From Hufsiella ginkgonis (GTDB taxonomy: Bacteria; Bacteroidota; Bacteroidia; Sphingobacteriales; Sphingobacteriaceae), in contig NZ_WVHS01000002.1 in the NCBI RefSeq assembly GCF_009834915.1, forward strand, positions 186,001 to 250,000: a stretch of 64,000 bases of DNA, given 5' to 3'. The notes beneath the pieces are model-generated. The model ran no database searches. It saw only the letters and a program-made list of their open reading frames with translations, and was not told the DNA's origin. The translations under genes and the position numbers were made by a program. Below are positions 21,569-61,251 of this stretch, one piece after another (the first letter of the stretch is position 1; each line of letters begins with the position of its first letter).

Positions 21569-21699
21569 CCTGTTTGTGCATCACCGGGTAGAAGGACGCT
21601 GCGTTTTGCCGGTTACACGAGGATTTCAACCACATCCATCGTTCGGTGATTAAACTTTTTTAGGGCTCCATAGTTATTCATTAACCTATTGTGAACAAC

Positions 21700-31197: not shown

Positions 31198-31198
31198 T

Positions 31199-44396: not shown

Positions 44397-45077
44397 ATGA
44401 GATCAGTACTAAAATTTTCTTTCCCGGGTATTTTTGCGCTTCTTTTTTCGGTGGGAGCTATCGCGCAAACCGCGGAGAAAGCTGTCCGCGACCAGGAATA
44501 TATCAAAACGATCACACTCCGTTCTGATAAGATCGCAGCGGTACTGGGCATCGCAGATTCTGCAAAGTATAAACGCGTAAGGACCTTACTGGTGAATGAA
44601 TACAGCGCTCTTAACGACGTACACGAAACGCGTAACCAGGAAACAAAGGCGCTAAAAGAGGAACTGAAGGACGATAAAGCTAAACTCGACTCAGGCATAG
44701 CCGGGCTGGAAGCCGTAGCCAATAGGAAATTAGACGCCCTGCACAATCATTTCCTGGCCAGCCTGGCGAAAGAACTTAACCAGGACCAGATAGAACAGGT
44801 AAAGAACGGCCTCACTTATAACGTATTGCCTATCACCTGGAAGGCTTACCAGGAAATGCTCCCCGATCTTACCGAACCCCAAAAAAAGCAGATGCTCGCC
44901 TGGCTTACCGAAGCGAGAGAGCATGCCATGGATGCCGAATCTTCGGATAAAAAACATGCCTGGTTTGGAAAGTACAAAGGCAGGATCAATAACTACCTGT
45001 CGGCACAAGGCATCGACATGAAAAAAGCGGGGGAGGACTGGCAGAAGCGCATCAAGGCCGCCCAGCAAAAGAACTAA
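44397..45077 (+). CDS. DUF3826 family exported protein
   Basis: 226 residues with a signal peptide (SVGAIAQT). The mature protein is almost entirely helical and charged (DQEYIKTITLRSDKIAAVLG, YSALNDVHETRNQETKALKEELKDD, LTYNVLPITWKAYQEML, YKGRINNYLSAQGIDMKKAGEDW), the pattern of DUF3826. This family is found beside SusCD pairs and pectin or rhamnogalacturonan enzymes in Bacteroidota, but its biochemical role is not known to me. It is the first gene behind regulatory site B and lies 63 bases before susC, so it is produced with the importer. A periplasmic binding or chaperone-like role is only a guess. Confidence 0.88.
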   Translation: MRSVLKFSFPGIFALLFSVGAIAQTAEKAVRDQEYIKTITLRSDKIAAVLGIADSAKYKRVRTLLVNEYSALNDVHETRNQETKALKEELKDDKAKLDSGIAGLEAVANRKLDALHNHFLASLAKELNQDQIEQVKNGLTYNVLPITWKAYQEMLPDLTEPQKKQMLAWLTEAREHAMDAESSDKKHAWFGKYKGRINNYLSAQGIDMKKAGEDWQKRIKAAQQKN

Positions 45078-45140: not shown

Positions 45141-48100
45141 ATGAATCTGAAACAACTACTAAATCTTTCGGGAACTTTTCTCCTGTTGTTGTTCGCCTGC
45201 TCTATGGGTTATGCCCAGGAAAGGGCGGTGACAGGAAAGGCGGTCGATAAGGCGGATGGCAGCCCCATGATCGGGCTGATCGTGAGCGTGAAAGGCCGCC
45301 CGTCAAATGTAAGCACCAACGGCAACGGAGAATTCTCAATCAGGGTTACCCCGTCTGATTCAGTGCTGGTATTTTCCTACATTGGCTATATCAGGCAGCA
45401 GGTAAAGATCGGCGACCGCTCGTCCATCATCGTTACGATGGAACCTGACACCAAAAGCCTGGACGAGGTAGTGGTGGTAGGCTACGGTACGCAAAAACGC
45501 GAAACCCTTACCGGTTCCATAGCTACGCTCACCACTAAAGACATAGAAGATTTGCCGGTAAGCAACATCGGCGCCGCGCTCGCCGGCCGTCTGCTGGGTG
45601 TAGGGGTAAGCGGCGGTACGCAGCGTCCGGGCTCTACGGCGACGATCACCGTGCGTAATCCTAACACGTTCCTGAGTAAAGACGGCGGTACCACATCCCC
45701 GTTGTTCGTGATTGATGATGTTATCCAGGTAACATCACAGGGAGCTCCGGATAATACACTGTTCAATAGTCTCGATATCAGTGAAATCGAATCGCTCAGC
45801 GTACTGAAAGATGCCGCGGCCGCTATCTACGGTTCACGGGCTGCAAACGGCGTGATCGTAGTTCGGACTAAACGCGGGAAAGACGGTAAGCCAAGGATTT
45901 CTTACAATGGGTCGTACGCAGTTAACGACGAGGCATTCCGTACCAAAATGTTGTCAGCAGCTGATTTCGCCCGGTATTACAATATCATGAACGGTCCGAA
46001 CGGCAGGGCCGCTACAAATTCCGTTACCAACGACAATGTGTTCACCGCTGAGGAAATCGCTGCTTTCGAGAATACGGATCATAACTGGCTAGACGACGCC
46101 TGGAAAGCGTCACATAACATGCATCATGGCCTCAGTGTATCAGGCGGCGCCAATAAGGCGACTTATTTTGCCAACGCTTCTTATTATACGCAGGACGGTA
46201 ACATGGGTGCGCTCGAATTCAGTCGCTGGAATTTCCGCGGCGGCGCCGACGTTGAGCCGATAAACAACTTAAAAGTTGGCCTTCAACTGTCGGGGAATTT
46301 TACCGACCAGGCGCGTACCTTCAATAAGATCGGTAGCGAGACGCTGGAGAATGACTATGTGAATTTGCTTACTACCCCACGTTATATTCCGGAATATATC
46401 AATGGCGTGCCCGTAAAGATTCCCGGAACAAACGCGTTCGCAGGATATCACTTTTTCGAGATCGAGCGTCTTGGAAACATTCAGTCTAATGACGACCGTG
46501 TCTTTACCGTGAACGTTTCTGCAGAATACAAATTACCCTGGGTGAAAGGCCTGGGCTTCAGGTTACAGTACGCGACGAATTTCGCCAACAATAACGGTGG
46601 CCAGGTAGGAACTACCTATACGCTGACCAAATTCACCGGGACCGGGACCAACATCCATATTCTCGATGATAACGCAGTGCCGATCGCGACGACGCCGACC
46701 AGCTCGTATTCTAACGGAGACCGCCTGTATTACTCGCAAACACGACAAAAAAGAGATCAAACCAACTTTTTCGTGACTTATGAACGTAGTTTCGGAAAGC
46801 ACAGCGTAAGTGCGCTCGCTACTGTAGAAAAATCCGAAGCTGAAGCTTATGGTACTACCGTTCTCAAAGAGAAACCGCTCCAGGGCACTAACGGGATGTT
46901 TAATACGGCCTTCGGTGCGATCGACGGTACTACAACCGGTAATGAGTCCGGAACATTGGGCTACATCGGAAGAGCGAACTACAATTATTCCAGCAAATAC
47001 CTGGCCGAATTCCTGTTCCGTTCAGACGCATCGACCAAATTTGCTCCGGACAATTATTGGGGCCGCTTTTATTCAGGATCGGTGGGATGGGTTGTTTCGG
47101 AAGAGAGCTTCTTTACAACACACGTGCTTGATTACCTGAAAGTTCGCTATTCACTGGGTAAACTCGGAAACGACCAAACCAAGGCATGGCTATGGCGGCA
47201 ACGCTATACGCCGCAGGAAGGGAAGGGCCTCGTGCTCCCTGGTACCGGCGGTAACAACAATACGAATACCGCTACCACGACCGGTTATAAAATGGAGGCG
47301 TCTCCTAACCCCGACGCGACGTGGAGCGATGAGCTTAAGCATAATCTTGGGTTCGACATGCGTTTCCTGAACAATCGCTTATCTGCGACCCTCGAAGGCT
47401 ATTACAATAAAGCCACTAATATCCTGATCGAGCCGATCGGAAGCGTGCCGGCTACCGTCGGGGGTTCAATAGCCTCTACTAATTTCGGGGCGGCAAACTT
47501 CTACGGCTATGAAATCGGGCTCGGCTGGAACGCAAAAGCTGGTAAAGACGTTAATTACGGCATCAACCTCAACTTTAACTGGGGCGATAATAAGGTCATT
47601 AAAATGAACTATACCGACATCTCCCAGCTTCAGCCATGGTCTCCGCATTATGGCGAGTCGAGCGATAACGGCAAATGGGGATATGATGTACTGGGCATGT
47701 TCAAAAACCAGGAGGAGATCGACGCATATGTGGCAGAGTACAAGATCACACAAGTACATGGCAATACGATCGGAAGCAGCTACAAACTAACGCCCGGTCA
47801 GTTGTACTACCGTGATATTCGCGGCAAAATGAACGCAGACGGCACTTTCGCCGCTCCCGATGGTATTATCGACGAAAACGACCAGGTCCAGCTTGCTAAA
47901 AAAGCGGTAAATCACTATGGCTTCGGTATCGTACTGCGCGCCGGCTGGAAAGGATTGAGCTTTGATGCTGCGATTACCGGCTCGTTCGGTGGTTTTGCGG
48001 AAATGGATGCCCGCAACAAGATGGAAACGAATATCTCGAATGCTTACTCGAGCGTACCAGCCTATTGGGCGAATATTTACGATCCGGTGCTGAACCCTTC

Positions 48101-48383
48101 GGGTACCCTGCCTAACCCGAACTGGTCGAACGTGAGCCTGGATAAGACATCGAAATTCTGGCAGGTAAGTGCGTTTCGTATGGGATTCCGCAATGCGAAC
48201 CTGAACTACTCGCTTCCGAAGAAGTTGGTGCAGCGCGCAGGCATAAGCAATGCACGGGTTTCACTTACTGCGCTTAATCCGGTGATCCTTTACAATCCGT
48301 ACGACTACAGGGATCCGGATGCAGGCTGGAACACTTACCCGAACCTGAGAACGATTTCATTGGGTCTCAACGCTACATTTTAA
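45141..48383 (+). CDS. SusC/RagA-type TonB-linked outer membrane importer
   Basis: 1080 residues. After a signal peptide (MGYAQERAV) comes a carboxypeptidase-regulatory-like domain (about 27-105; GKAVDKADGSPMIGL, FSYIGYIRQQ), the plug with the SusC signature (LDEVVVVGYGTQKRETLTGSI, LSVLKDAAAAIYGSRAANGVIVV) and a large barrel. It has no STN domain, so unlike the receptor at 10240 it should not signal to a FecR protein. It takes up the oligosaccharides made by surface lyases, together with the SusD lipoprotein 29 bases downstream. The substrate is inferred to be pectic from the enzymes around it. Confidence 0.96.
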   Translation: MNLKQLLNLSGTFLLLLFACSMGYAQERAVTGKAVDKADGSPMIGLIVSVKGRPSNVSTNGNGEFSIRVTPSDSVLVFSYIGYIRQQVKIGDRSSIIVTMEPDTKSLDEVVVVGYGTQKRETLTGSIATLTTKDIEDLPVSNIGAALAGRLLGVGVSGGTQRPGSTATITVRNPNTFLSKDGGTTSPLFVIDDVIQVTSQGAPDNTLFNSLDISEIESLSVLKDAAAAIYGSRAANGVIVVRTKRGKDGKPRISYNGSYAVNDEAFRTKMLSAADFARYYNIMNGPNGRAATNSVTNDNVFTAEEIAAFENTDHNWLDDAWKASHNMHHGLSVSGGANKATYFANASYYTQDGNMGALEFSRWNFRGGADVEPINNLKVGLQLSGNFTDQARTFNKIGSETLENDYVNLLTTPRYIPEYINGVPVKIPGTNAFAGYHFFEIERLGNIQSNDDRVFTVNVSAEYKLPWVKGLGFRLQYATNFANNNGGQVGTTYTLTKFTGTGTNIHILDDNAVPIATTPTSSYSNGDRLYYSQTRQKRDQTNFFVTYERSFGKHSVSALATVEKSEAEAYGTTVLKEKPLQGTNGMFNTAFGAIDGTTTGNESGTLGYIGRANYNYSSKYLAEFLFRSDASTKFAPDNYWGRFYSGSVGWVVSEESFFTTHVLDYLKVRYSLGKLGNDQTKAWLWRQRYTPQEGKGLVLPGTGGNNNTNTATTTGYKMEASPNPDATWSDELKHNLGFDMRFLNNRLSATLEGYYNKATNILIEPIGSVPATVGGSIASTNFGAANFYGYEIGLGWNAKAGKDVNYGINLNFNWGDNKVIKMNYTDISQLQPWSPHYGESSDNGKWGYDVLGMFKNQEEIDAYVAEYKITQVHGNTIGSSYKLTPGQLYYRDIRGKMNADGTFAAPDGIIDENDQVQLAKKAVNHYGFGIVLRAGWKGLSFDAAITGSFGGFAEMDARNKMETNISNAYSSVPAYWANIYDPVLNPSGTLPNPNWSNVSLDKTSKFWQVSAFRMGFRNANLNYSLPKKLVQRAGISNARVSLTALNPVILYNPYDYRDPDAGWNTYPNLRTISLGLNATF

Positions 48384-48412
48384 CAGAGTTCCGAAACAAC
48401 AATAAAACGATA

Positions 48413-50425
48413 ATGAAACGAACAAAATATATATTTCTCCTGGCATCGCTTATCATCGCCGCGGCAGGATGTAACGATGATTTCCTCGAAGAAAAACGCG
48501 ACCTTACAGGGACCAACGAAGAAGTTTTCCAGGAACCGCAACTCGCTTCCGGCTATGTGGATTACATTTACGGGCTCTTCAGCCCTGCAAATAATGGTAT
48601 CCCGAACGTACAGAGCCAGTCGAATGCTGAAAACGGCGCATTTAACACGGCGTGGACACAAACCACCGATGAGATGTCGGGCGAAAACGACTGGAATAAG
48701 GTATGGCCTTCGATCGCTTATACACAGAACCATGCCGTAAAGTATTTCGGACAGGCCGTTGGAACGAGCATCGCCAACAACACCTGGACGCGCATGAAAC
48801 AAATCAATATCTTCCTCACGTCTATCGACAAGTATAGTTTGACTGACGCGGTAAAAGATCCGCTGAAAGGACAAATGTATTTCTGGCGGGCCTACCAGTA
48901 TTTCGAACTGGTAAAATTATATGGCGGCGTTCCGCTGGTGCTCGAGCCGGCCAACCCGATCCTCGACGGCAATACCAGCAGTAAGATCCAGCGCAGTTCG
49001 ACCGATGCAACTATTAGCCAGATCGTAGCCGACCTGGACCAGGCGATCAAGCTGCTTCCGGCAAAATGGCCGGCTTCTGACTGGGGCCGGATTACGAGCG
49101 GCGCCGCAGCGGCCCTGAAAGGGCGCGTACTCCTTACCTATGCAAGCCCGCAATTCAACCGCGCCGATGACAGGGTCCGCTGGCAAAAAGCCTACGATGC
49201 TAACCTTGCAGCTAAAACACTCCTCGATGCTAATGGCTTTGGCTTATATAACGTTGGAGGCACCGCCAACGGGACGGCCTGGGCAAACATGTTCCTCGCA
49301 GAAGGTTACGCCAACACTGAGGCTATCTGGACCACCGGGTTCAACACCGTAGCTTCAGGCAACTCACAACGGAACAACGGTTGGGAGCAAGCTATCCGGC
49401 CGAAAGATATCGGTGGTGGCGGTTCCGTGGTACCTACCAAACAAATAGTGGATGCATTCCCCATGAAAGACGGCAAAATGCCAGGCTCCTCTATCTACAC
49501 CTACGATGCTGTTAAAATTTATAAGAACCGTGACCCTCGTTTCGCAAAAACCTTTATCTGGAACGGCGCGCTTTACCCTTATAACGGTGCATCGGCGAAC
49601 CGCGCATGGACGTATACCTGGAAATCGGCAAGCTCAGCGACAAAATACGACAAGAGCACTGAAAAGGCGGCGACCGCCACGGGCTTTTATCTTTGTAAAG
49701 CAAGCAATACCGCAGCAGCCATCACAAACGGCTCATTTTCAATCAGCGGGACCGATTACATCGAGATCCGCTATGCGGAAGTACTGCTCAATCTTGCAGA
49801 ATCGGCTGCCGGCATAGATAAAGTGACCGACGGGTTGGGCTACATCCAGCAAGTTCGCGCCAGGGCTGGTGTCGAAAATAAAGACGGCATGTATGGCTTG
49901 AGCGGTATCGCTTCCCGCGACCAGGCCTTCGGCGCTGTCATCAATGAACGGAAAGTAGAGTTCGCGTATGAGAACAAACGCTTCTGGGACCTGCGCCGGT
50001 GGCTACTCTTCAATAACGATTTTGGTACATGTACGCGGCTCGGGCAGACGCCGATCGACGGGATGCGTCGCCAGGGATACTATTTCAGTGCCAGAAACAG
50101 CAACGGTACGGATTACGTGCACACCTCGGCCGATCCTTTCGTAAAACCGGCTTCAGGTTCGGCGCCGCTGATAGACAGGGATGCAACCACTTATCCTGCC
50201 GGTGTAGCCAACGCTGATGCCTACGTGGATTATATTTATGACAACTACCTGAAAGTGAGCGTAAAGGACGACGTAGATCCCACCACCGGGTGGAAATTCA
50301 AATGGTACAACGAGTATTATTTCTTCGGCATCAATTCATCGGTTCTCAACACATCCAGCTATCTTAATCAAACGATCGGCTGGAATAGCCTGACCGGGAA
50401 CGGAACGTTCGACCCGTTGAAATAA
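48413..50425 (+). CDS. SusD/RagB-type surface glycan-binding lipoprotein
   Basis: 670 residues. The lipoprotein signal ends in IIAAAGC-N (Cys about residue 20), followed by an acidic DDFLEE stretch usual for surface export in Bacteroidota. The SusD N-terminal TPR-like region (about 60-300; FWRAYQYFELVKLYGGVPLVLEP, AALKGRVLLTYASPQFN) and RagB/SusD C-terminal domain (ADPFVKP region, YIEIRYAEVLLNLAE, INERKVEFAYENKRFWDLRRW) are complete. It forms the lid of the SusC barrel and captures the oligosaccharide. At 670 residues it is somewhat longer than the starch prototype. Confidence 0.96.
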   Translation: MKRTKYIFLLASLIIAAAGCNDDFLEEKRDLTGTNEEVFQEPQLASGYVDYIYGLFSPANNGIPNVQSQSNAENGAFNTAWTQTTDEMSGENDWNKVWPSIAYTQNHAVKYFGQAVGTSIANNTWTRMKQINIFLTSIDKYSLTDAVKDPLKGQMYFWRAYQYFELVKLYGGVPLVLEPANPILDGNTSSKIQRSSTDATISQIVADLDQAIKLLPAKWPASDWGRITSGAAAALKGRVLLTYASPQFNRADDRVRWQKAYDANLAAKTLLDANGFGLYNVGGTANGTAWANMFLAEGYANTEAIWTTGFNTVASGNSQRNNGWEQAIRPKDIGGGGSVVPTKQIVDAFPMKDGKMPGSSIYTYDAVKIYKNRDPRFAKTFIWNGALYPYNGASANRAWTYTWKSASSATKYDKSTEKAATATGFYLCKASNTAAAITNGSFSISGTDYIEIRYAEVLLNLAESAAGIDKVTDGLGYIQQVRARAGVENKDGMYGLSGIASRDQAFGAVINERKVEFAYENKRFWDLRRWLLFNNDFGTCTRLGQTPIDGMRRQGYYFSARNSNGTDYVHTSADPFVKPASGSAPLIDRDATTYPAGVANADAYVDYIYDNYLKVSVKDDVDPTTGWKFKWYNEYYFFGINSSVLNTSSYLNQTIGWNSLTGNGTFDPLK

Positions 50426-50485: not shown

Positions 50486-50527
50486 TCATTATCTGCCGGT
50501 TGCGGGGACTATACCATTGTTACACGC

Positions 50528-50595
50528 TATGATAACATCCTATACTATTTTGAGAAAATGCTATAGAAACCAAGCCAGCTTTAGCCGGATATTTG
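50528..50595 (+). promoter_or_regulatory. PUL regulatory site C: activator box plus -7 element, lyase operon
   Basis: TATGATAACATCCTA at 50528-50542, CTATACTAT starting at 50540 and CTATAGAAA starting at 50561 (21 bases on), then a GATATTTG -7-like element at 50588-50595, 60 bases after the box start. It is nearly identical to site A, 22 kb away. The lyase start codon is 41 bases further. Confidence 0.74.
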
Positions 50596-50636
50596 ATTTA
50601 CTTGTACTTTCTAACCATAGAATAAACTCTCAAAAA

Positions 50637-52304
50637 ATGAAGAAATATTTTGCAGTGCTGATGGCGATGGTTTTGGCCGGCGCTACTAAACCAGTCCTGG
50701 CACAATACCCAAAGATCCCGGCAGATGTGCAGAAAGCCAGCGATGAAATGATGGCCGAAGCAAAACGTAAATCAGATATCGCATGGCTGAAAGCGTTACC
50801 AGTTATTGAGAGAGAAGCAAAAGCAGGTAAGCCATATGTTCCGTGGGCGGGCCGGCCGATCGATCTTCCCCAATCTGATATTCTTGCATTCCCGGGAGCG
50901 GAAGGTGGGGGTGCGCATTCTTTCGGCGGACGCGGGGGACGTGTGATCGTAGTGACCAGTCTCGGAGACTCCGGTCCGGGAACGCTCCGCGATGCCTGCG
51001 AACAGGGTGGCGCGCGCATTGTCGTGTTCAATGTATCAGGTATTATCCGCATCAAAACACCCCTGGTGATCAGAGCTCCGTACATCACCATCGCCGGTCA
51101 AACCGCGCCGGGCGACGGGATATGCGTGGCCGGGGAGTCTGTGTGGCTCAATACCCATGATGTAGTAGTACGTTTTATGCGCTTCCGCCGCGGCGAAACG
51201 TATGTAGGCCGCCGGGATGACGCCATTGGCGGAAATCCGATCGGCAACATCATGATCGATCACGTTTCGGCAAGCTGGGGATTGGATGAAAACATGTCTA
51301 TGTACCGACACATGTACAACGACAGCACCGGTAAAGCGGAAGAAAAACTTGCAACGGTGAATATTACCATCCAGAATTCAATTTTCTCCGAGTGCCTCGA
51401 TACCTGGAACCACGCGTTTGGCAGCACGCTGGGCGGGGAAAATTGTTCGTTCATCAGGAATTTATGGGCAGACAACGGCGCCCGCAACCCGTCTATCGGG
51501 TGGAACGGGATCTTTAATTTCGCTAATAACGTTGTGTTTAACTGGCACAATCGTTCTACCGATGGCGGGGACTACACCGCCCTATACAATATTATCAACA
51601 ACTACTATAAACCGGGTCCGGTTACCGATGTAAAAGATCCCGTGAGCTACCGGATCCTAAAACCGGAATCGGGGAGAAGTAAACTACCTTACGTGGTGTT
51701 TGGCCGTGCGCACGTAAGCGGCAATATCATAGAGGGAAATGAGCAGGTAACCAAAGATAACTGGAACGGAGGCGTACAGGTGGAAAATAAAAAAGGCGAC
51801 CTGATGAGCTACGCGGATGCCAGCAAATATTTTGCAGCCATGAAAGTGGAGAAACCCTTGCCGATGCCCGATTTCACGATCATTCCTGCCCGCGATGCTT
51901 ACAGCTATGTACTGGAGAACGCGGGGGCTACGTTACCTAAGCGGGATCCGGTTGATACCCGGATCGTGAAACAGGTACGTACCGGTGTGATCGACTATAT
52001 TAAAGACGTAAAATTACCCGCTACGCAGTTCGAACATCGCCGCCTACCGATCGACTCGTATAAACTCGGCATTATTACCGATATCAGCCAGGTCGGCGGA
52101 TATCCGGAATATAAAGGATCCCCTTATAAGGATTCCGACGGCGACGGAATGCCCGACGACTACGAACTTAAGAACGGTCTGGATCCAAAGAGCGCCGCCG
52201 ACGCGGCCGTGATCCGCAAAAGCGGGTACAGCAACATCGAAGAATATTTAAATAGCATTGTAGCGATCGCTGCGGTAACCCCCGCCGCAAAAAAAATAAA
52301 GTAA
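50637..52304 (+). CDS. Pectate lyase family 1 (PL1), first of a tandem pair, with C-terminal calcium motif
   Basis: 555 residues from ATG 50637, followed by a signal peptide (KPVLAQYPKIP). Features of the Bacteroidota PL1 group: FPGAEGGGAHSFGGRGG, TLRDACEQGGARIVVFNVSG, PYITIAGQTAPGDGI, IGGNPIGNIMIDHVSASWGLDENMS and the catalytic-site Arg283 in ARNPSIGWNG. The enzyme cleaves polygalacturonate by calcium-dependent beta-elimination. The C-terminus has DSDGDGMPDDYE, a thrombospondin-type-3/dockerin-like calcium-binding loop. A near-duplicate follows with a one-base overlap. First gene behind regulatory site C. Confidence 0.93.
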   Translation: MKKYFAVLMAMVLAGATKPVLAQYPKIPADVQKASDEMMAEAKRKSDIAWLKALPVIEREAKAGKPYVPWAGRPIDLPQSDILAFPGAEGGGAHSFGGRGGRVIVVTSLGDSGPGTLRDACEQGGARIVVFNVSGIIRIKTPLVIRAPYITIAGQTAPGDGICVAGESVWLNTHDVVVRFMRFRRGETYVGRRDDAIGGNPIGNIMIDHVSASWGLDENMSMYRHMYNDSTGKAEEKLATVNITIQNSIFSECLDTWNHAFGSTLGGENCSFIRNLWADNGARNPSIGWNGIFNFANNVVFNWHNRSTDGGDYTALYNIINNYYKPGPVTDVKDPVSYRILKPESGRSKLPYVVFGRAHVSGNIIEGNEQVTKDNWNGGVQVENKKGDLMSYADASKYFAAMKVEKPLPMPDFTIIPARDAYSYVLENAGATLPKRDPVDTRIVKQVRTGVIDYIKDVKLPATQFEHRRLPIDSYKLGIITDISQVGGYPEYKGSPYKDSDGDGMPDDYELKNGLDPKSAADAAVIRKSGYSNIEEYLNSIVAIAAVTPAAKKIK

Positions 52305-53938
52305 TGAAACGGACTTCTATTACGATAGCTGCCGCGTTAAGCCTGGCGGTTTTATCACACACTGCTTTTGCGCAGTATCCCGTCATCCCCGAAAAACTCC
52401 AGGCAGATGCCGATGCTGCGCTCGGTATCGTGAAAAAAAACTCGGATATCGCCTGGGAGAAGGCGCTTCCTATTATACGGCGCGATGAGAAAAATGGTAA
52501 ACCCTACGTTCCATGGGCGGCAAAGCCTTCGGACCTGCCACAGTCAAAACTAGTGGCGTTCCCGGGCGCGGAAGGCGGCGGAGCACACTCATTTGGCGGC
52601 CATGGCGGAAAAGTGATCGTGGTAACCACGCTGGCCGACAGTGGTCCGGGCTCCTTCCGCGAGGCTTGCGAGCAGGGTGGCACACGTATCGTGGTGTTCA
52701 ACGTAGCCGGGATCATCCGCATTAAAAGCCCGGTGATCATTCGCGCTCCGTATATCACCATCGCCGGTCAGTCCGCGCCGGGAGATGGCGTATGTATCGC
52801 CGGAGAATCGGTTTGGATCGATACACACGATGTGGTGATCCGTTATATGCGCTTCCGCCGGGGCGAAACCGACGTAACGCGCAGGGACGACGCCATCGGC
52901 GGAAACCCGGTGGGAAACATCCTGATCGATCATGTATCTGCAAGCTGGGGCCTGGACGAAAACATGTCGATGTACCGGCATGTATACGATCGCGGCGGGT
53001 CGAAACAGGAAAAATTGCCGACCGTTAACATCACGATTCAGAACTCGATCTTCTCTGAAGCGCTCGATACTTATAACCATGCATTCGGAAGTACCATCGG
53101 CGGATTGAACAGCACCTTTATGCGGAACTTGTGGGCGAATAACATTAGCCGGAATCCGTCTGTGGGTATGTACGGCGATTTTGGATTTGTGAATAACGTA
53201 GTTTACAACTGGTGGAACCGGTCCGCAGACGGTGGAGATAACGAATCGCAATACAGCTTTATCAACAATTATTATAAACCCGGCCCCATTACTCCCCCGG
53301 GCGAGCCGATCAGCTACCGTATCCTGAAACCGGAAGCGGGGCGTGCCAAAGACAAATCGACGGTGTTCGGGAAAGCTTATGTTGCCGGGAACGTCATAGA
53401 AGGCAACGAGAAAGTAACTAAAAATAATTGGGACGGTGGGGTCCAGGTAGAGAGCAAGGGCGACAACGCCAGGCTGATCGATAGCATCCGCACAGATAAA
53501 CCTTTCCCGATGGCATCTATAACGAAAGTTTCGGCTGAAAAAGCTTACGCATACGTGCTCGGCAATGCCGGCGCTACGCTTCCTAAACGTGACCCGGTTG
53601 ATCTTCGCATCATCGAGGAGGTGAAAACCGGTAAACCGCTGAACCGTCAGCCGGGAACGCCCGCGAACGGACAGCAATATATTAAAAGAAGGCTCGGCCC
53701 CGATTCCTATTTAAAGGGGATTATCAGCGACATCAGCCAGGTAGGCGGGTATCCTGAGTATAAAGGCAGTCCTTACAAGGATGCCGATAACGACGGGCTG
53801 CCTGACGATTGGGAACTAAAGAACGGTTTAAACCCGAAAGACCCGTCAGATTCCGCGAAGGTCCGATCCAAAAGCGGTTATTCGGTGATCGAAGAATACC
53901 TGAATAGTTTAGTGAAAGTGGAGGATGTGAGACCTTGA
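52304..53938 (+). CDS. Pectate lyase family 1 (PL1), second of a tandem pair
   Basis: 544 residues, ATG 52304 overlapping the preceding stop by one base. The same blocks as in the first copy are conserved over nearly the full length (FPGAEGGGAHSFGGHGG, SFREACEQGGTRIVVFNVAG, IDHVSASWGLDENMSMYRH, Arg283 in SRNPSVGMYG), including the calcium motif DADNDGLPDDWE, so the pair is a tandem duplication. Differences concentrate in the stretch after ENMSMYRH and in the last third (a LNRQPGTPANGQQY insert), which may alter cleft or product profile. It acts in the same pathway step as its neighbour. Confidence 0.93.
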   Translation: MKRTSITIAAALSLAVLSHTAFAQYPVIPEKLQADADAALGIVKKNSDIAWEKALPIIRRDEKNGKPYVPWAAKPSDLPQSKLVAFPGAEGGGAHSFGGHGGKVIVVTTLADSGPGSFREACEQGGTRIVVFNVAGIIRIKSPVIIRAPYITIAGQSAPGDGVCIAGESVWIDTHDVVIRYMRFRRGETDVTRRDDAIGGNPVGNILIDHVSASWGLDENMSMYRHVYDRGGSKQEKLPTVNITIQNSIFSEALDTYNHAFGSTIGGLNSTFMRNLWANNISRNPSVGMYGDFGFVNNVVYNWWNRSADGGDNESQYSFINNYYKPGPITPPGEPISYRILKPEAGRAKDKSTVFGKAYVAGNVIEGNEKVTKNNWDGGVQVESKGDNARLIDSIRTDKPFPMASITKVSAEKAYAYVLGNAGATLPKRDPVDLRIIEEVKTGKPLNRQPGTPANGQQYIKRRLGPDSYLKGIISDISQVGGYPEYKGSPYKDADNDGLPDDWELKNGLNPKDPSDSAKVRSKSGYSVIEEYLNSLVKVEDVRP

Positions 53939-56900
53939 GCAAGTTCTTTCGGCATATTTTACTGGTTGGTTTCGGTGCGCTGCACTGCGGTTCGGCTATT
54001 GCGCAGCCGAAACCGGCAAAACCTCTTCCGCCGCTGGTGGTTGGAAAAGACGGAAAACTCACCTACAACGGTGACGCCAAAGGAAACCGGGTGCCCGACT
54101 TTTCTTACAGCGGCTATATGGCCGGGGAAACTGCGCTCCCGGAAGTGCCCGTAAAAGTTACGGTGCCTGTAAAAGCGGGCGACGCTACCTGGCGGATCCA
54201 ATCGGCTATTGATTATGTATCTGCCCTCGTACCCGATAAAGCCGGGTTTCGTGGCGCCGTGCTCCTCGAAAAAGGAACTTACACGGTAGAGGGCGCATTA
54301 AAGATCGCCGCGTCGGGTGTAATACTTCGCGGTAGCGGGGCCGGTAGTAACGGTACCTTATTGCTCGGAGCGGGAACCGACCGGCAAACCCTGATCACGG
54401 TGTCAGGCAAATTCGACCGCAAAACCCAGGCCCCGGTTAAAGTAACGGATCCGTATGTTCCCGTAAACGCGACAAAGCTCACTGTACCTGATGCATCGCC
54501 ATTTAAAGCGGGCGACCAGGTATTGGTGCAGCGCCCGTCTACAAAAGCCTGGATCGACCTGCTCGGCACGGATCATTTTGGCGGCGGCATTACCTCGCTA
54601 GGCTGGAAACCCGGCCAGCGCGACGTTGCTTGGGACCGTAAAATCATCTCCATATCCGGCAATACGCTTACCCTCGATGCACCGTTAACGACCGCGCTCG
54701 ACACAGCATTCGGGGGCGGAACGGTTTCGAAATATTCCTGGCCGGGTAGAATTGAACGCAGCGGCATCGAAAATATGCGCCTGGTTTCGGCTTACGATGA
54801 AGCTAACCCCAAGGACGAAGCACACCGCTGGATGGCGATCGTGATAGCCAATACCACAGATGCCTGGGTGCGGAGGGTGAACTTCTCTAACTTCGCAGGT
54901 TCGGCGGTAATGGTCCAGGAAACCGGTAAACGCATCACGATAGAAGATTGCAAATCGTTGAACCCGGTTTCAGAAATTGGCGGCGAGCGCAGGAATACCT
55001 TTTTCACCGCCGGCCAGCAAACGCTTTTCCAGCGGATCTATGCCGAATTTGGCTTCCATGATTTCGGTCTCGGATTTTGTGCCGCGGGACCCAATGCATT
55101 TGTGCAATGCGAATCACATCTCCCGTATAGTTTTAGCGGACCGATAGACAGCTGGGCATCGGGCGTATTATTTGATATCGTGAACGTCGACGGCCAGGCG
55201 TTAAGCTACCTGAACCGCGGGCAGGACGGACAAGGCGCCGGCTGGAATGCCGCTAACAGCGTTTTCTGGCAATGCAGCGCTTCCAGGATCGACTGTTACC
55301 AGCCCCCGGGCGCTAATAACTGGTCGTACGCTTCCTGGGCGCAATTCGCCGGCGACGGCTATTGGGAAAGCTCCAACGAACAGGTTCAGCCGAGGAGCCT
55401 GTATTATGCACAGCTAAAAGAACGCGTGGGCGAATCGGTTAAGCCGAGGATGCGCCTCCTGGATATCCAGACAGAAGCATCCAGCAGTCCGCCGGTGGAC
55501 GTAGCGATGGCATTAACCAAAGAGGCGACCAATGCAGCGCCGCTCCTGGCCGACCTCATAGACCGTGCAGGAGACCTGGATCCGTTACCGGTTAACCCTG
55601 CGGGGATAAAGACCATCGATGATATCGGGGTAAAAACACCAGTTGTACCCGCGCTTGCCGCGCCATTAAAGATCGCGAACGGCGTATTGGTGAGAGGCGG
55701 TATCGTAGTAACCGGCAAACAGCGCGACGTTCCCTGGTGGAACGGCAGCGCAAGGCCGTATGCGCTTGCTGCCGCCAAACAACATATCACCCGGTTTGTG
55801 CCTGGTAAAACAGGAAACGGGTTGACCGATGATCCTGCCACGGTATCCGATTCGATGGTATCGAACAACGTGGTGGCGTTAGATCATAACTATGGTTTAT
55901 GGTATGAACGCCGCCGCGACGACCACGAACGTATCCGCAGGATGGACGGCGACGTTTGGGCTCCATTTTATGAGTTGCCCTTCGCGCGAAGCGGCCAGGG
56001 TACCGCCTGGGATGGCATGAGTCGTTACGACCTCACCAAATACAATAAGTGGTACTGGAGCAGGTTGAAGCAATTCGCCGACCTGGCAGATCAGAAAGGG
56101 TTGGTATTGATCCACGAGAATTACTTCCAGCACAACATCATTGAAGCCGGTGCGCACTATGCCGATTTCCCATGGAGGCCTGTAAATAACATCAACAATA
56201 CCGGTTTCCCCGAGCCGGTGAACTATGCGGGCGATAAACGACTGTTTATGGCCGGGCAGTTTTATGACGTTACAAATCCGGCCAGGAGAAACATCCACAA
56301 GGCGTATATCCGCCAGTGCCTCAATAACTTTACGGGAAACAGCGGGGTGATCCAGCTGATCGGTGCAGAGTTTACGGGCCCGCTTCACTTTGTACAATTC
56401 TGGCTCGACAACATCGGCGATTGGGAGAAGGAAACCGGGAAAAAGGAACTGGTAGGTCTTAGCACCACGAAGGATGTGCAGGACGCTATCCTGGCCGACC
56501 CGGAACGGGCTAAATTGGTGGATATCATAGATATCCGCTACTGGCATTACCAGGCCGACGGGAAAGCATATGCACCTCCCGGCGGACAGAACCTTGCTCC
56601 GCGCCAGCACGCACGCTTGTTAAAACCAAAAGCCAGCTCGTTTGAACAGGTTTACAGGGCCGTAGCCGAGTACCGGCAAAAGTACCCGACGAAGGCGGTA
56701 ATGTACTCAGGTGACGGAGCGGAAAATAACGGATGGGCTGTATTTATGGCCGGTGGCTCCCTGGCGGCTATCCCGAAAACGCCCGACGGATTCCTGAAAG
56801 AGGCATCTGCGATGAAGCCATTGGCGCTGCCCGAAAAGATTACAGGGCAGTACGCACTTTCCGGGGGGAAATCAGGGTACATCATCTATAACGGCTCCGC

Positions 56901-57069
56901 GCAACCGGTAAAGCTGGATCTTTCCCGCGTTCCCGGGACGCTGACTCTTCAATGGATCAATACCAGGAATGGCGCTTTATCAAACAAGAACGAAAAAATT
57001 AAAGGCGGAAGTGTTGCCGAGCTCACGCCGCCCGGACAGGACTTTATCGCATGGATCACACAAAAATGA
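53935..57069 (+). CDS. Two-module DUF6298-like protein: beta-helix plus TIM-barrel-like region, possible new pectin-active enzyme
   Basis: 1044 residues. The only reasonable start is TTG 53935, overlapping the lyase stop (TTGA), and it gives a good signal peptide (MSKFFRHILLVGFGALHCGSAIAQ region). Residues about 70-480 look like a right-handed beta-helix (TWRIQSAIDYVSAL, GAVLLEKGTYTVEGALKIAASGVILRGSG, WVRRVNFSNFAGSAVMV). Residues about 640-980 look like a GH TIM barrel (YNKWYWSRLKQFADLADQKGLVLIHENYFQHN, NNFTGNSGVIQLIGAEFTGPLHFVQFW, KAVMYSGDGAENNGW), followed by a short beta domain. Acidic pairs in HENYF and GAEFTG could be catalytic. I believe it belongs to the DUF6298 group; no activity is known to me. 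Confidence 0.7.
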   Translation: MSKFFRHILLVGFGALHCGSAIAQPKPAKPLPPLVVGKDGKLTYNGDAKGNRVPDFSYSGYMAGETALPEVPVKVTVPVKAGDATWRIQSAIDYVSALVPDKAGFRGAVLLEKGTYTVEGALKIAASGVILRGSGAGSNGTLLLGAGTDRQTLITVSGKFDRKTQAPVKVTDPYVPVNATKLTVPDASPFKAGDQVLVQRPSTKAWIDLLGTDHFGGGITSLGWKPGQRDVAWDRKIISISGNTLTLDAPLTTALDTAFGGGTVSKYSWPGRIERSGIENMRLVSAYDEANPKDEAHRWMAIVIANTTDAWVRRVNFSNFAGSAVMVQETGKRITIEDCKSLNPVSEIGGERRNTFFTAGQQTLFQRIYAEFGFHDFGLGFCAAGPNAFVQCESHLPYSFSGPIDSWASGVLFDIVNVDGQALSYLNRGQDGQGAGWNAANSVFWQCSASRIDCYQPPGANNWSYASWAQFAGDGYWESSNEQVQPRSLYYAQLKERVGESVKPRMRLLDIQTEASSSPPVDVAMALTKEATNAAPLLADLIDRAGDLDPLPVNPAGIKTIDDIGVKTPVVPALAAPLKIANGVLVRGGIVVTGKQRDVPWWNGSARPYALAAAKQHITRFVPGKTGNGLTDDPATVSDSMVSNNVVALDHNYGLWYERRRDDHERIRRMDGDVWAPFYELPFARSGQGTAWDGMSRYDLTKYNKWYWSRLKQFADLADQKGLVLIHENYFQHNIIEAGAHYADFPWRPVNNINNTGFPEPVNYAGDKRLFMAGQFYDVTNPARRNIHKAYIRQCLNNFTGNSGVIQLIGAEFTGPLHFVQFWLDNIGDWEKETGKKELVGLSTTKDVQDAILADPERAKLVDIIDIRYWHYQADGKAYAPPGGQNLAPRQHARLLKPKASSFEQVYRAVAEYRQKYPTKAVMYSGDGAENNGWAVFMAGGSLAAIPKTPDGFLKEASAMKPLALPEKITGQYALSGGKSGYIIYNGSAQPVKLDLSRVPGTLTLQWINTRNGALSNKNEKIKGGSVAELTPPGQDFIAWITQK

Positions 57070-58448
57070 AAGTGACCTATTCTTATTTACTGTCATTGCT
57101 GCTGGTGCTGACGTCGGCAACAAACCTGGCTGCTCAAACTGTCGGGAAATTATCCGTTTCTGCCAATCGCAGGTTTATTCAGCGCGACGGAAAGCCGTTC
57201 TTTTGGTTAGGTGATACCGGGTGGCTTCTTTTCGTTAAACTTGACCGGGAAGCGGTAGATAACTACCTCGAAGACCGCCATCAGAAAGGATTTAACGTGA
57301 TCCAGGTAATGGTAGTGCACGATCTCCGAAAGGCGGTGAACGTATACGGCGATTCAGCTTTTGTGAATAACGATCTTTCAAAGCCGCTTACTACCCCAGG
57401 CGCATCCTTCGCAAGCAAGCAGCAATACGATTTCTGGGACCATGTGGATTACGTGGTAAACAAGGCGGCTTCCAAAGGCATTTACCTGGGAATGGTGCCT
57501 GTTTGGGGAAGCAACATTAAAGGAGGCCTGGCTAACCGGGAACAAGCGGCCATCTACACTAAGTTTCTCGTTAACAGGTACAAAAGGTCCGGCAACATCA
57601 TTTGGTTGAATGGCGGCGACATCAAAGGAAGCGATTCGGCCGCGGTGTGGAAAACGATCGGGACAACCCTGAAAAAGCATGATCCAAACCACCTGGTCAC
57701 TTTTCATCCGCGCGGACGATCGTCGTCATCAGAATGGTTCCACAACGAGAACTGGCTGGATTTCGACATGTTCCAATCCGGGCATAAAAGTTATGCACAG
57801 GACACTACCGACATCCGCATCGGCGAGGATAACTGGAGATATGTAAGAACGGATTTCGGTAAGCTGCCCAAAAAACCTTCGATAGACGGAGAACCTTCCT
57901 ACGAAAAAATTCCACAGGGATTACATGATACGCTGGCGCCGTTATGGACCGATGCCGACGTGCGCAGGTATGGCTACTGGTCGGTTTTTGCCGGGGGCTT
58001 CGGGTATACCTATGGCGATAATACGGTAATGCAATTCCGCAGGCCAGGCGATGGTCCCGGCGCATACGGCGCAAAAGACTATTGGTACCAGGCGATCCAC
58101 GACCCCGGGTCTTCGCAAGTACAGTGGCTAAAAAAACTGATCCTCGGCAAACCATTCTTTGAAAGGATTCCTGATCAATCTCTTATTGCCAACCAGGGCG
58201 AAAAGTACAATTACCTGGCTGCTACGCGTGGCAGGCGTTACGCGTTTGTGTATTCGTATACCGGCAGAACGATGAAAATAAACATGGGAAAGATCGCCGG
58301 TACCCGGGTTAAAACATCCTGGTATGATCCGCGCACGGGGAAAACGACACCCGGGGCAACCGTCAGCAATTCCGGGGTAAAAGAATTCGGCCCGCCGGGA
58401 GAAGAGAAAGAAGGCAACGACTGGGTGCTGGTACTGGAAAGTATTTAA
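57066..58448 (+). CDS. GH140-like glycosidase (DUF4038, apiosidase family)
   Basis: 460 residues; ATG 57066 overlaps the preceding stop (ATGA). The signal peptide ends near NLAAQTVG. The DUF4038 barrel carries RFIQRDGKPFFWLGDTGWLLF, FNVIQVMVVHDL, GNIIWLNGGDIKGSD and a Glu in PSIDGEPSYE; the C-terminal about 90 residues (YAFVYSYTGRTMKINMGKIAGTRVKTSWYDPRTG) match the collagen-binding-like domain that accompanies the family. The founding member, BT_1012, is an apiosidase acting on rhamnogalacturonan II. That substrate would agree with the GH95 gene, but DUF4038 proteins are diverse. Confidence 0.82.
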   Translation: MKVTYSYLLSLLLVLTSATNLAAQTVGKLSVSANRRFIQRDGKPFFWLGDTGWLLFVKLDREAVDNYLEDRHQKGFNVIQVMVVHDLRKAVNVYGDSAFVNNDLSKPLTTPGASFASKQQYDFWDHVDYVVNKAASKGIYLGMVPVWGSNIKGGLANREQAAIYTKFLVNRYKRSGNIIWLNGGDIKGSDSAAVWKTIGTTLKKHDPNHLVTFHPRGRSSSSEWFHNENWLDFDMFQSGHKSYAQDTTDIRIGEDNWRYVRTDFGKLPKKPSIDGEPSYEKIPQGLHDTLAPLWTDADVRRYGYWSVFAGGFGYTYGDNTVMQFRRPGDGPGAYGAKDYWYQAIHDPGSSQVQWLKKLILGKPFFERIPDQSLIANQGEKYNYLAATRGRRYAFVYSYTGRTMKINMGKIAGTRVKTSWYDPRTGKTTPGATVSNSGVKEFGPPGEEKEGNDWVLVLESI

Positions 58449-59400: not shown

Positions 59401-61251
59401 ATGAAAAAGTTTATTCTACATATTTCGTTCATCATCGCATTCCTGCTGTATGGGCATCTAAATAGCCTTGCACAGGATACGGTCCATTATTCGGGAACCA
59501 CGCTTTCCAACGTCGACTACCATCACGGGCAGCTGGCCTCCGCGGTTGGCGTGCACAACATCCAGGTATTCCGGGCAAACCGCGAACACCCTGAGTGGGC
59601 GTCAGGGCTTAATTGGACCTACAACCACGCGCCAATGCTGGCATATTGGAATAATACCTTTTACCTGCAGTACCTGAGCAACCCGGTAGGGGAACATGTG
59701 CCGCCAGGACAGACGCTGCTTATGACTTCTGCGGATGGGTACAACTGGAGTGCGCCGGCGGTAATTTTCCCCGTCTATCGCATACCCGACGGAACAAAGA
59801 AACCCGGCCATGCTCCCGAAGCGCGGAACCTCGATGCCGTGATGCACCAGCGTATGGGCTTTTACGTGGCCAGGAACAAACGTTTACTAACATTGGCCTT
59901 TTACGGAATGGTCATTGAACCGAAAGACGATCCCAATGATGGAAACGGTATCGGTCGCGTGGTCCGCGAGATCTATCCCGACGGAAAATATGGTCCGGTC
60001 TATTTTATCAGGAACAATACCTGGTGGGATAAAACAAAATCCGCCTACCCGTTCTACACATCGAGCAAGGACAAAGGGTTCGTGGAAGCCTGCAACGAAC
60101 TGCTTGGAAATCCGCTAGCCATGCAGGAATGGGTAGAAGAAGCCGACCGCAACGACCCGCTGGTCCCGCTCAAAAAGGAAGTGAAGGCATTCAGCTACTA
60201 TCATCTTCCGAACGGGAAGGTAGTGGGGTTATGGAAGAACGCGCTTACCTCTATAAGTGCCGATAATGGCAAAACCTGGCAGTATGGCCCTTTGCGGGCA
60301 CCTGGCTTTGTAAACAGCAACGCGAAAATATGGGGGCAGCGTACTTCCGATGGTCGCTATGCTACGGTTTATAATCCGTCTGAATTTCGCTGGCCGTTAG
60401 CGGTATCAATAAGTGATGATGGCCTGGATTACAAGAACTTGCTCCTGGTAAACGGGGAAATCACTACGATGCGCTATGGTGGCGCCTATAAATCATATGG
60501 CCCTCAATATGTGCGCGGAATAGAGGAAGGCTGCGGAACACCGCCAGACGGGAAAATGTGGGTCACCTACAGCATGAACAAGGAAGATATCTGGATAGCC
60601 AATATTCGCGTTCCTGTTGTTTCTGAAGTAAAAGAACCTGTAAACGAGGTGTTTGCAAATCTTCCACAGGGAAAAGAGTTACAATTTTGGAACATTTACA
60701 GCCCGTTATGGGCGCCTGTAAAAATTGAAAAATCTCCCGATGGCTCGAATGCACTCACGCTGCGTGATAAAGACCCCTTTGATTACGCTACCGCCGGGCG
60801 TGTAATTCCGCGATCGAAAAAAGTGGCGGTCGAATTTACGATCATACCGGGACAAAGCGACAGGGGGCAGCTCCAGGTAGAATTCCAGGACGATAAGGGA
60901 ACGGCCGCCTCGCGCCTGGTTTTTGATTCCGACAGCCTCTTGAAAGTAAAAACCGGCTATCGTTCGTCGACCGTTACGAAATATGAGGCGGGTAAAGCGC
61001 TTAGAGTGCGCGCAGAGCTCGACAGGGACAAACGCATGCTGACGATTGCCATTAACGGCGAAAATAAAGGTCCGAAGATATTCTTTGCGCCGGTTGCCTT
61101 TTTTGAAAAAGTAGTATTCCGTACGGGGGATGTACGCCGTTTCCCGGATGCGGATACCCCCACTGACCAGGATTTCGATGTAAAGAATCCCGGTGCGCAA
61201 GATGCGGAAGCAGTATTTTATATTAAATCATTCTCAACCAGCAGGTTATAA
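59401..61251 (+). CDS. Sialidase-fold beta-propeller protein with C-terminal beta-sandwich, function unknown
   Basis: 616 residues with signal peptide (NSLAQDTV). Residues about 30-410 have propeller-like repeats including one good Asp-box (SADNGKTW, residues 286-293) and two partial ones (SADGYNW at 110-116; SDDGLDY near 338). About residues 430-610 form a beta-sandwich of the concanavalin/laminin-G type (KKVAVEFTIIPGQSDRGQLQVEF, LRVRAELDRDKRMLTIAING). A YRIP string occurs but is not in the GH33 context, and I cannot find a convincing arginine triad. Asp-box propellers in pectin and arabinogalactan loci include lyases and rhamnosidases (PL27, GH145), which are alternatives. It abuts the esterase gene. 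Confidence 0.65.
   Translation: MKKFILHISFIIAFLLYGHLNSLAQDTVHYSGTTLSNVDYHHGQLASAVGVHNIQVFRANREHPEWASGLNWTYNHAPMLAYWNNTFYLQYLSNPVGEHVPPGQTLLMTSADGYNWSAPAVIFPVYRIPDGTKKPGHAPEARNLDAVMHQRMGFYVARNKRLLTLAFYGMVIEPKDDPNDGNGIGRVVREIYPDGKYGPVYFIRNNTWWDKTKSAYPFYTSSKDKGFVEACNELLGNPLAMQEWVEEADRNDPLVPLKKEVKAFSYYHLPNGKVVGLWKNALTSISADNGKTWQYGPLRAPGFVNSNAKIWGQRTSDGRYATVYNPSEFRWPLAVSISDDGLDYKNLLLVNGEITTMRYGGAYKSYGPQYVRGIEEGCGTPPDGKMWVTYSMNKEDIWIANIRVPVVSEVKEPVNEVFANLPQGKELQFWNIYSPLWAPVKIEKSPDGSNALTLRDKDPFDYATAGRVIPRSKKVAVEFTIIPGQSDRGQLQVEFQDDKGTAASRLVFDSDSLLKVKTGYRSSTVTKYEAGKALRVRAELDRDKRMLTIAINGENKGPKIFFAPVAFFEKVVFRTGDVRRFPDADTPTDQDFDVKNPGAQDAEAVFYIKSFSTSRL

Follow-up and report, generated by a model that had tools for sequence, protein, structure and literature searches.

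Which step of pectin breakdown is served by the large two-module protein encoded at 53935-57069 in a 64,000-nucleotide stretch of Hufsiella ginkgonis DNA (contig NZ_WVHS01000002.1, positions 186,001 to 250,000; hereafter the window)? The original prediction read this open reading frame (ORF) as a DUF6298-like protein with an N-terminal beta-helix and a C-terminal glycosidase barrel, set in a pectin operon, and proposed a fused lyase or esterase and hydrolase. Here, we found that the protein is almost certainly a dedicated component of systems that act on rhamnogalacturonan II (RG-II), the most complex pectin. As to what it does there, we prefer a secreted bifunctional RG-II enzyme with a lyase module and a GH140-like module, a reading to which we give slightly less than an even chance. 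The gene and its modules are as follows.

53935..57069, + strand: DUF6298 two-module protein, 1044 residues, TTG start, no internal stop
53935..54006, + strand: signal-peptide-like N terminus, residues 1-24, by reading the translation
54055..55434, + strand: N-terminal right-handed beta-helix module, about residues 41-500, distant relative of PL29-type lyases
55435..55734, + strand: variable helical linker, residues 501-600, mean column identity 0.56
55735..56814, + strand: (beta/alpha)8 barrel, about residues 601-960, closest fold GH140
56815..57066, + strand: C-terminal beta-sandwich, residues 961-1044, with a sub-threshold Collagen_bind_2 match

The ORF is a real gene and not a chance reading frame, since a pattern-based scan of one genome per species (84,980 species) found 82 relatives. 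The best 80 of these, used below, have best-segment identities of 47-66%; they are mostly from Bacteroidota, and two come from planctomycete metagenome-assembled genomes (MAGs; L020 and L040). The 79 unbroken relatives are 1029-1090 residues long, and each covers 99% or more of the columns of both helix and barrel. The Pfam model DUF6298 (PF19815) matches residues 475-960 over its whole length (model positions 1-487/487; E 9e-251, 833.2 bits against a gathering cut-off of 28.1 bits), which places the protein in the family that had been suspected. This is the sole Pfam match above cut-off; the sub-threshold Collagen_bind_2 match covers residues 980-1035. The protein is probably secreted, as judged from its translation. 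The close linkage to the upstream lyase gene was also as predicted: the TTG start shares four bases (TTGA) with the 3′ end of that gene (52304-53938). The DUF6298 gene is single copy in the host genome (5.2 Mb, 25 contigs). Tandem DUF6298 genes (L148 and L156) were seen in one genome from the order draw of the Prevotellaceae MAG G395 (G505 C6:73287-77882), with helix parts 47% and 53% identical, respectively, to that of the 53935-57069 protein.

The distribution of the family points to RG-II. Among 395 Bacteroidota genomes, PF19815 matched 27, of which 19 encode the full-length protein and 8 weak barrel relatives only. DUF3826 occurs in exactly the same 19 genomes. A GH138-type protein was matched at E 0 in 18 genomes, all within the 19, while weak partial GH138-type matches only were found in nine others, including the nineteenth DUF6298 genome (G286). 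Each of the 18 DUF6298-GH138 pairs lies on one contig, with match starts 5-60 kb apart. The hypergeometric chance of the DUF3826 and GH138 overlaps is about 9e-33 and 3e-30, respectively, on the assumption of independent genomes, which does not hold; nine of the 19 genomes belong to one genus (g9), and 10 genera are represented in all. In a separate draw of 198 genomes around G395, the full-length protein was found in seven. DUF6298 is not a mere follower of pectin use, since GH28 is far commoner (99 of 390 genomes, a slightly smaller draw, against 19 of 395), and the idea of a general follower was ruled out. The GH28 genomes include 18 of the 19 with DUF6298 (G394 is not listed), and the g9 genomes G057, G068, G084, G174, G245, G289 and G339 have GH28 and are unmatched for DUF6298, DUF3826 and GH138. 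A relative of the RG-II methylesterase (BT1017-type) is present in 19/19 DUF6298 genomes at E 6.3e-115 or better. The esterase half of the original prediction therefore found no support, and we also rejected DUF6298 as a replacement for that methylesterase, an idea that arose because DUF3826, which is fused to the methylesterase in BT1017, often adjoins DUF6298.

The genes around DUF6298 in the window agree with this distribution. Upstream lie two PelZ/PL1-like lyase ORFs and a SusC/SusD-like pair, and the locus reads as follows.

28450..31197, + strand: relative of BPa0997 (PDB 6hzf), which we take to be GH138, 1036.7 bits
31166..32746, + strand: relative of the C-terminal half of 5mqr (BT1020), presumably GH142, 517.5 bits
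34299..37091, + strand: GH95-like enzyme
44397..45077, + strand: DUF3826 protein, family of Bacteroides thetaiotaomicron (B. theta) BT1022 and the BT1017 C-terminal domain
45141..50425, + strand: SusC-like and SusD-like pair, labels by reading
50517..52304, + strand: PelZ/PL1-like lyase A, long TTG-start form as listed, NCBIfam PelZ match
52304..53938, + strand: PelZ/PL1-like lyase B, NCBIfam PelZ match
57051..58448, + strand: GH140 apiosidase relative, Pfam Apiosidase 370.6 bits, PDB 3kzs/5msy 442.7 bits
58465..59397, + strand: GH43-like protein, Pfam
59401..61251, + strand: relative of the N-terminal half of 5mqr (BT1020), which we assume to be GH143, 750.3 bits
61252..62718, + strand: SASA-type acetylesterase-like protein, Pfam
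from 62715: GH2-like open ORF, label by reading

The PelZ scores of the two lyase ORFs (134.7 and 135.1 bits) are below the 840-bit equivalog cut-off. One GH28 and one GH2 gene are also encoded in the window. Downstream are genes for a BNR sialidase-like protein and for two rhamnosidases of GH78 type. The part of PMC7939467 available to us gives BT1012, BT1017, BT1018, BT1021 and BT0996 as RG-II enzymes. By gene context and co-occurrence, the pectin targeted by this locus is most likely RG-II, which sharpens the pectin operon first proposed. The two halves of BT1020 are separate genes here (31166-32746 and 59401-61251), about 27 kb apart, and a second DUF3826 copy lies just past the window (G000 C12:254403-254945). 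Upstream of the locus, a LigD-type gene (window 21691-24429) has phosphoesterase, ligase and primase-polymerase domains.

We surveyed gene context in 80 loci, with 10 kb or less of flanking sequence; these loci are interrelated, and because several contigs are short the counts are lower bounds. A relative of the GH143 half was found in 66 loci, GH140 in 65, the GH43-like gene and lyase A in 63 each, DUF3826 in 60, the ORF at 62715 in 53, SASA in 32 and lyase B in 22. Either lyase is present in 74/80 loci, and GH140 and the GH143 half occur together in 62/80. In the 76 loci that have 800 bases of upstream sequence, the nearest match on that side, within 1 kb, is most often a lyase (65 loci); it is DUF3826 in 8 loci, and 3 have no match. 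The nearest downstream match is GH140 in 65 of 80. The DUF6298 gene also lies beside lyase genes in the two planctomycete MAGs. Translational coupling is not general, because the gap between lyase and DUF6298 varies from -44 to 441 bases (starts uncurated).

A gut relative, G238, is near B. theta, since its methylesterase matches 6goc (BT1017) at 1118.9 bits. In G238, a PL1-like gene and the DUF6298 gene form a pair at one end of the RG-II gene set. A hybrid two-component regulator precedes the pair, and the GH140 gene is about 63 kb away. Because the pair is kept although GH140 is distant, the job of DUF6298 would be linked to backbone cutting. By synteny with G238, the B. theta orthologue should be about BT0979; an earlier guess from operon order, BT1013, was dropped, as the G238 gene follows the regulator and the PL1-like gene. 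In the parts of the sources available, BT0977-BT1030 is a rhamnogalacturonan locus, for RG-II in PMC3243724, and disruption of its regulator BT0981 lowered the density reached on RG-II to 78.3% of the wild-type value (PMC3243724, PMC3878776). Among BT0978-BT0981, only BT0981 is named in the literature searched, by two papers, and no paper naming DUF6298 or BT1013 was found in that literature, which excluded Ndeh et al. 2017 (RG-II) and 2018 (PL29). In G238, the GH143-half match falls inside one 1109-residue ORF, the length of the fused BT1020, and a DUF5703 protein with no other Pfam match (L173:3883-6105, C3) lies among the RG-II genes.

AlphaFold modelled the full-length protein (mean predicted local distance difference test score, pLDDT, 85.1; predicted template modelling score, pTM, 0.86) as an N-terminal right-handed beta-helix followed by a (beta/alpha)8 barrel and a beta-sandwich, and the C half modelled alone from 80 sequences scored similarly (pLDDT 85.0, pTM 0.89). 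Both folds of the original prediction thus stood. Mean column identity is 0.74 in the helix and 0.47 in the sandwich, and the barrel is the most conserved module (0.78). The helix is also found without the barrel, in L142 (1013 residues, behind another beta-helix region) and L158 (626 residues, with a type IX secretion system tail), and the barrel without the helix in L139, where the N-terminal extension probably comes from an over-long ORF call. That each module occurs without the other supports two separable functions. No PDB relative of the whole protein was found by phmmer at E 1, and PDB profile searches gave two weak helix matches (7chu and 3zsc) and otherwise chance-like unrelated proteins.

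The C half is closest in fold to the GH140 beta-apiosidases: 8t9w at Z 19.6 (root-mean-square deviation, rmsd, 3.5 Å, 334 residues aligned) and BT1012 (5msy) at Z 18.9 (rmsd 3.6 Å, 348 aligned), which bears out the glycosidase-like barrel. The GH140 alignment covers residues 560-1044, i.e., barrel and sandwich. Among the 50 C-half matches listed, 21 reach through the sandwich to residue 485 of the half, led by four GH140 or GH140-like rows. GH140 chains fill the first fifteen places when Foldseek is run on the C half, and GH140 structures are also listed for the full-length model. These rankings cover the families in the fold lists, and a CAZy family outside them may also be related. In the product of the neighbouring GH140 gene, itself in the same operon, the Apiosidase domain is followed by Collagen_bind_2. 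A barrel-sandwich-beta-lactamase fusion (L140, G397 C112) matches both DUF6298 (3.8e-13) and, below cut-off, Apiosidase (1e-4), and so ties the two families together. Identity to GH140 in the structural rows is only 13-14%. The DUF6298 protein has no Apiosidase match (PF13204, cut-off 26.5 bits) at E 0.1, and hhalign of the barrel profile against GH140 aligned the sandwich alone (64 columns, probability 35). In a joint MAFFT alignment the GH140 strands seem to be out of place, and residue mapping did not draw on it. Two features of the barrel stand out.

56368..56370, + strand: E812, end of strand beta4, Glu in 80/80
55891..55989, + strand: basic loop after beta1, residues 653-685, highly conserved, partly of low model confidence

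The catalytic pair of GH140 is formed by acidic residues at the ends of beta4 and beta7, and clan GH-A enzymes need the second Glu at the end of beta7. Several acids of the barrel are invariant in the alignment of homologues, in line with the conserved-looking acids of the original prediction. E812 lies at the end of beta4 in the model, and it is aligned to Glu in all six printed alignments (L139, L140, L100, L151, L101 and L141). Further invariant acids (80/80) near strand ends are D693, E737, D847 and D866, the last being Cys in L139. The long basic loop, a difference from GH140, may close on an acidic substrate.

Several observations on this half weigh against an active GH140-like module. 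No acid is invariant after beta7 (residues 921-924 in the model, from which strand ends were taken): among the 80 sequences, position 926 is A in 35, G in 33, E in 5, S in 5, H in 1 and T in 1, while position 927 is D in 65 and position 930 is D in 66 and E in 7. Structural matches to GH5 mannanases begin at Z 18.1, tied with the second GH140 row, although they align over fewer residues (3wh9: 272). The basic loop is also poorly modelled. Hydrolysis by the barrel is thus uncertain because the beta7 position has no invariant acid, so that of the proposed fusion the hydrolase part is left in doubt. Catalysis by the barrel, if present, would not be by the textbook GH-A pair, and we rate its being catalytic at all as evenly balanced.

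The missing beta7 acid would suit an arrangement in which one module alone is catalytic, with the helix as an active lyase and the barrel, a degenerate relative of GH140, serving to bind the apiosyl region much as a carbohydrate-binding domain would. Weak barrel matches of less than 60 bits were found in 21 of 32 loci scanned by script (L100-L110, L139-L159), 17 of them in ORFs of 449-572 residues. Stand-alone barrels of about 490 residues (L100, L101, L103, L107 and L151) share the barrel and sandwich, and L100, L101 and L151 have Glu where E812 stands; they differ in having no beta-helix, in weak DUF6298 scores (21-38 bits) and in that little or nothing aligns to the basic loop (joint alignment). 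By eye, most of the stand-alone barrel relatives among the rows listed of the joint alignment also show no acid at beta7, L103 being an exception with Glu. However, the barrel is better conserved than the helix (0.78 against 0.74), its 28 invariant D, E, H, R or K are more than we would expect of a binding surface, and barrel-only relatives persist without a helix. We consider this one-module arrangement unlikely.

The helix was examined in the same way. In the full-length model, the 50 VIA-align matches listed are right-handed beta-helices over residues 71-536, as had been read for this half. NCBIfam PL29 (the BT3328 family) matches the 53935-57069 protein at E 7.4e-11 (41 bits) and a planctomycete DUF6298 member at E 1.6e-11, and of the nine proteins scanned, all DUF6298-type or helix-only, eight have a match to it at E 0.01 or below. 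In the other direction, a helix profile built from 53 sequences was run against proteins from the PL29-model search (L160-L164) and scored 68.4 bits for L162, 51.8 for L163, 46.1 for L164, 31.1 for L161 and 19.0 for L160; the E-values (2.7e-22 to 2.6e-7) are flattering, as the file held 13 ORFs only. The PL29-type proteins L162-L164 also share a C-terminal PxSLYxAQLxxRLG-like stretch with the DUF6298 protein. Among PDB chains, the helix profiles found lyase-named 7chu (2.1e-4 and 3.7e-6) and, weakly, 3zsc (0.064 and 0.0074). By sequence comparison, the helix is homologous, distantly, to the PL29-type beta-helix. Its most conserved positions include the following.

54814..54831, + strand: D294-E295-A-H297-R298-W299 motif; D294, E295, H297 and W299 in 80/80 and in helix-only relatives
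54988..54993, + strand: R352-R353, 80/80; R352 invariant in helix-only relatives too
55057..55062, + strand: H375-D376, 80/80; H375 invariant in wider sets, D376 not (Ala in L149)

With helix-only relatives included (11- and 14-sequence sets), E279, D294, E295, H297, W299, D338, R352, R367, H375 and D414 are invariant. The residue sets D294/E295/H297, E347/R352/R353 and H375/D376 fall in loops that follow strands, on turns close together in the model, which suggests that they share one groove. From this homology and the invariant D/E/H/R set we infer a lyase role, and we rate catalysis by the helix as a lyase somewhat better than even.

Four points weigh against a lyase of PL29 type. The match of 41 bits is far from the 1100-bit PL29 cut-off; one of the nine proteins scanned, L070, had no PL29 match at E 0.01; L160, the sole PL29 protein over the 1100-bit cut-off, gets just 19.0 bits from the helix profile; and the helix fold resembles epimerases, GH28, GH141 and phage tailspikes at similar Z, so that the fold by itself is not diagnostic of a lyase. 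The D/E-x-H plus Arg arrangement also occurs in alginate epimerases. The helix might be a hydrolase or uronate epimerase on RG-II, like GH28, GH141 or an alginate-type epimerase, as the high structural rows for the alginate epimerase/lyase 8ja4 (Z 28.0, rmsd 2.2 Å, 265 aligned), the epimerase 5lw3 (Z 27.8), the GH28 polygalacturonase 1bhe (Z 27.1, rmsd 3.0, 287 aligned) and the GH141 enzyme BT1002 (5mqp; Z 25.1, rmsd 3.2, 279 aligned) would allow. Its sequence homology points instead to PL29-type proteins, and the PDB profile matches other than chance-like ones are lyase-named; we thus find such a hydrolase or epimerase less probable still than the one-module arrangement. That neither half is catalytic, the protein being a surface or periplasmic RG-II binding scaffold, is very improbable given the invariant polar sets in both halves and the relation of both to enzyme families, even though we know of no DUF6298 activity and these loci hold other proteins of unknown role, such as DUF3826, of which neither BT1022 nor the BT1017 domain bound RG-II according to the part of PMC7939467 available.

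Taken together, these results lead us to favour the secreted bifunctional enzyme, although no DUF6298 member with measured activity was found in the literature searched. To our knowledge, the only 4-substituted uronates in RG-II are those of the galacturonan backbone, and a helix lyase would therefore most likely cut there. The helix would be a uronate lyase related to PL29, and its target would be the 4-linked galacturonan of the backbone, close to decorations. It would work alongside the PL1-like lyases of the upstream genes, perhaps at sites where PL1 is hindered by side chains. The GH140-like barrel and sandwich would engage the apiosyl-galacturonate branch point, where the barrel would either cleave the branch by non-standard residues or hold the substrate for the lyase module. 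In the available part of PMC9067506, the PL29 founder BT3328 is an endolytic beta-eliminating lyase with chondroitin sulfate, dermatan sulfate and hyaluronan as substrates, whereas the DUF6298 gene lies among RG-II genes and its helix has a different partner domain.

RG-II breakdown by B. theta is regarded as nearly solved. The presence of DUF6298 in all 18 strong-GH138 Bacteroidota genomes, while Pfam still gives it as of unknown function, suggests an unnamed step, and the protein may be an overlooked enzyme of the RG-II pathway. At its boldest, and here we are doubtful, DUF6298 would be a new family of RG-II backbone lyases fused to a new glycoside hydrolase family in the GH140 neighbourhood that departs from the GH-A catalytic pair, the fusion being a step in every strong-GH138 system sampled and unmentioned in the RG-II papers searched. 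If the helix does cut the RG-II backbone as a lyase, it would also be of use as a tool to free RG-II domains from cell walls.

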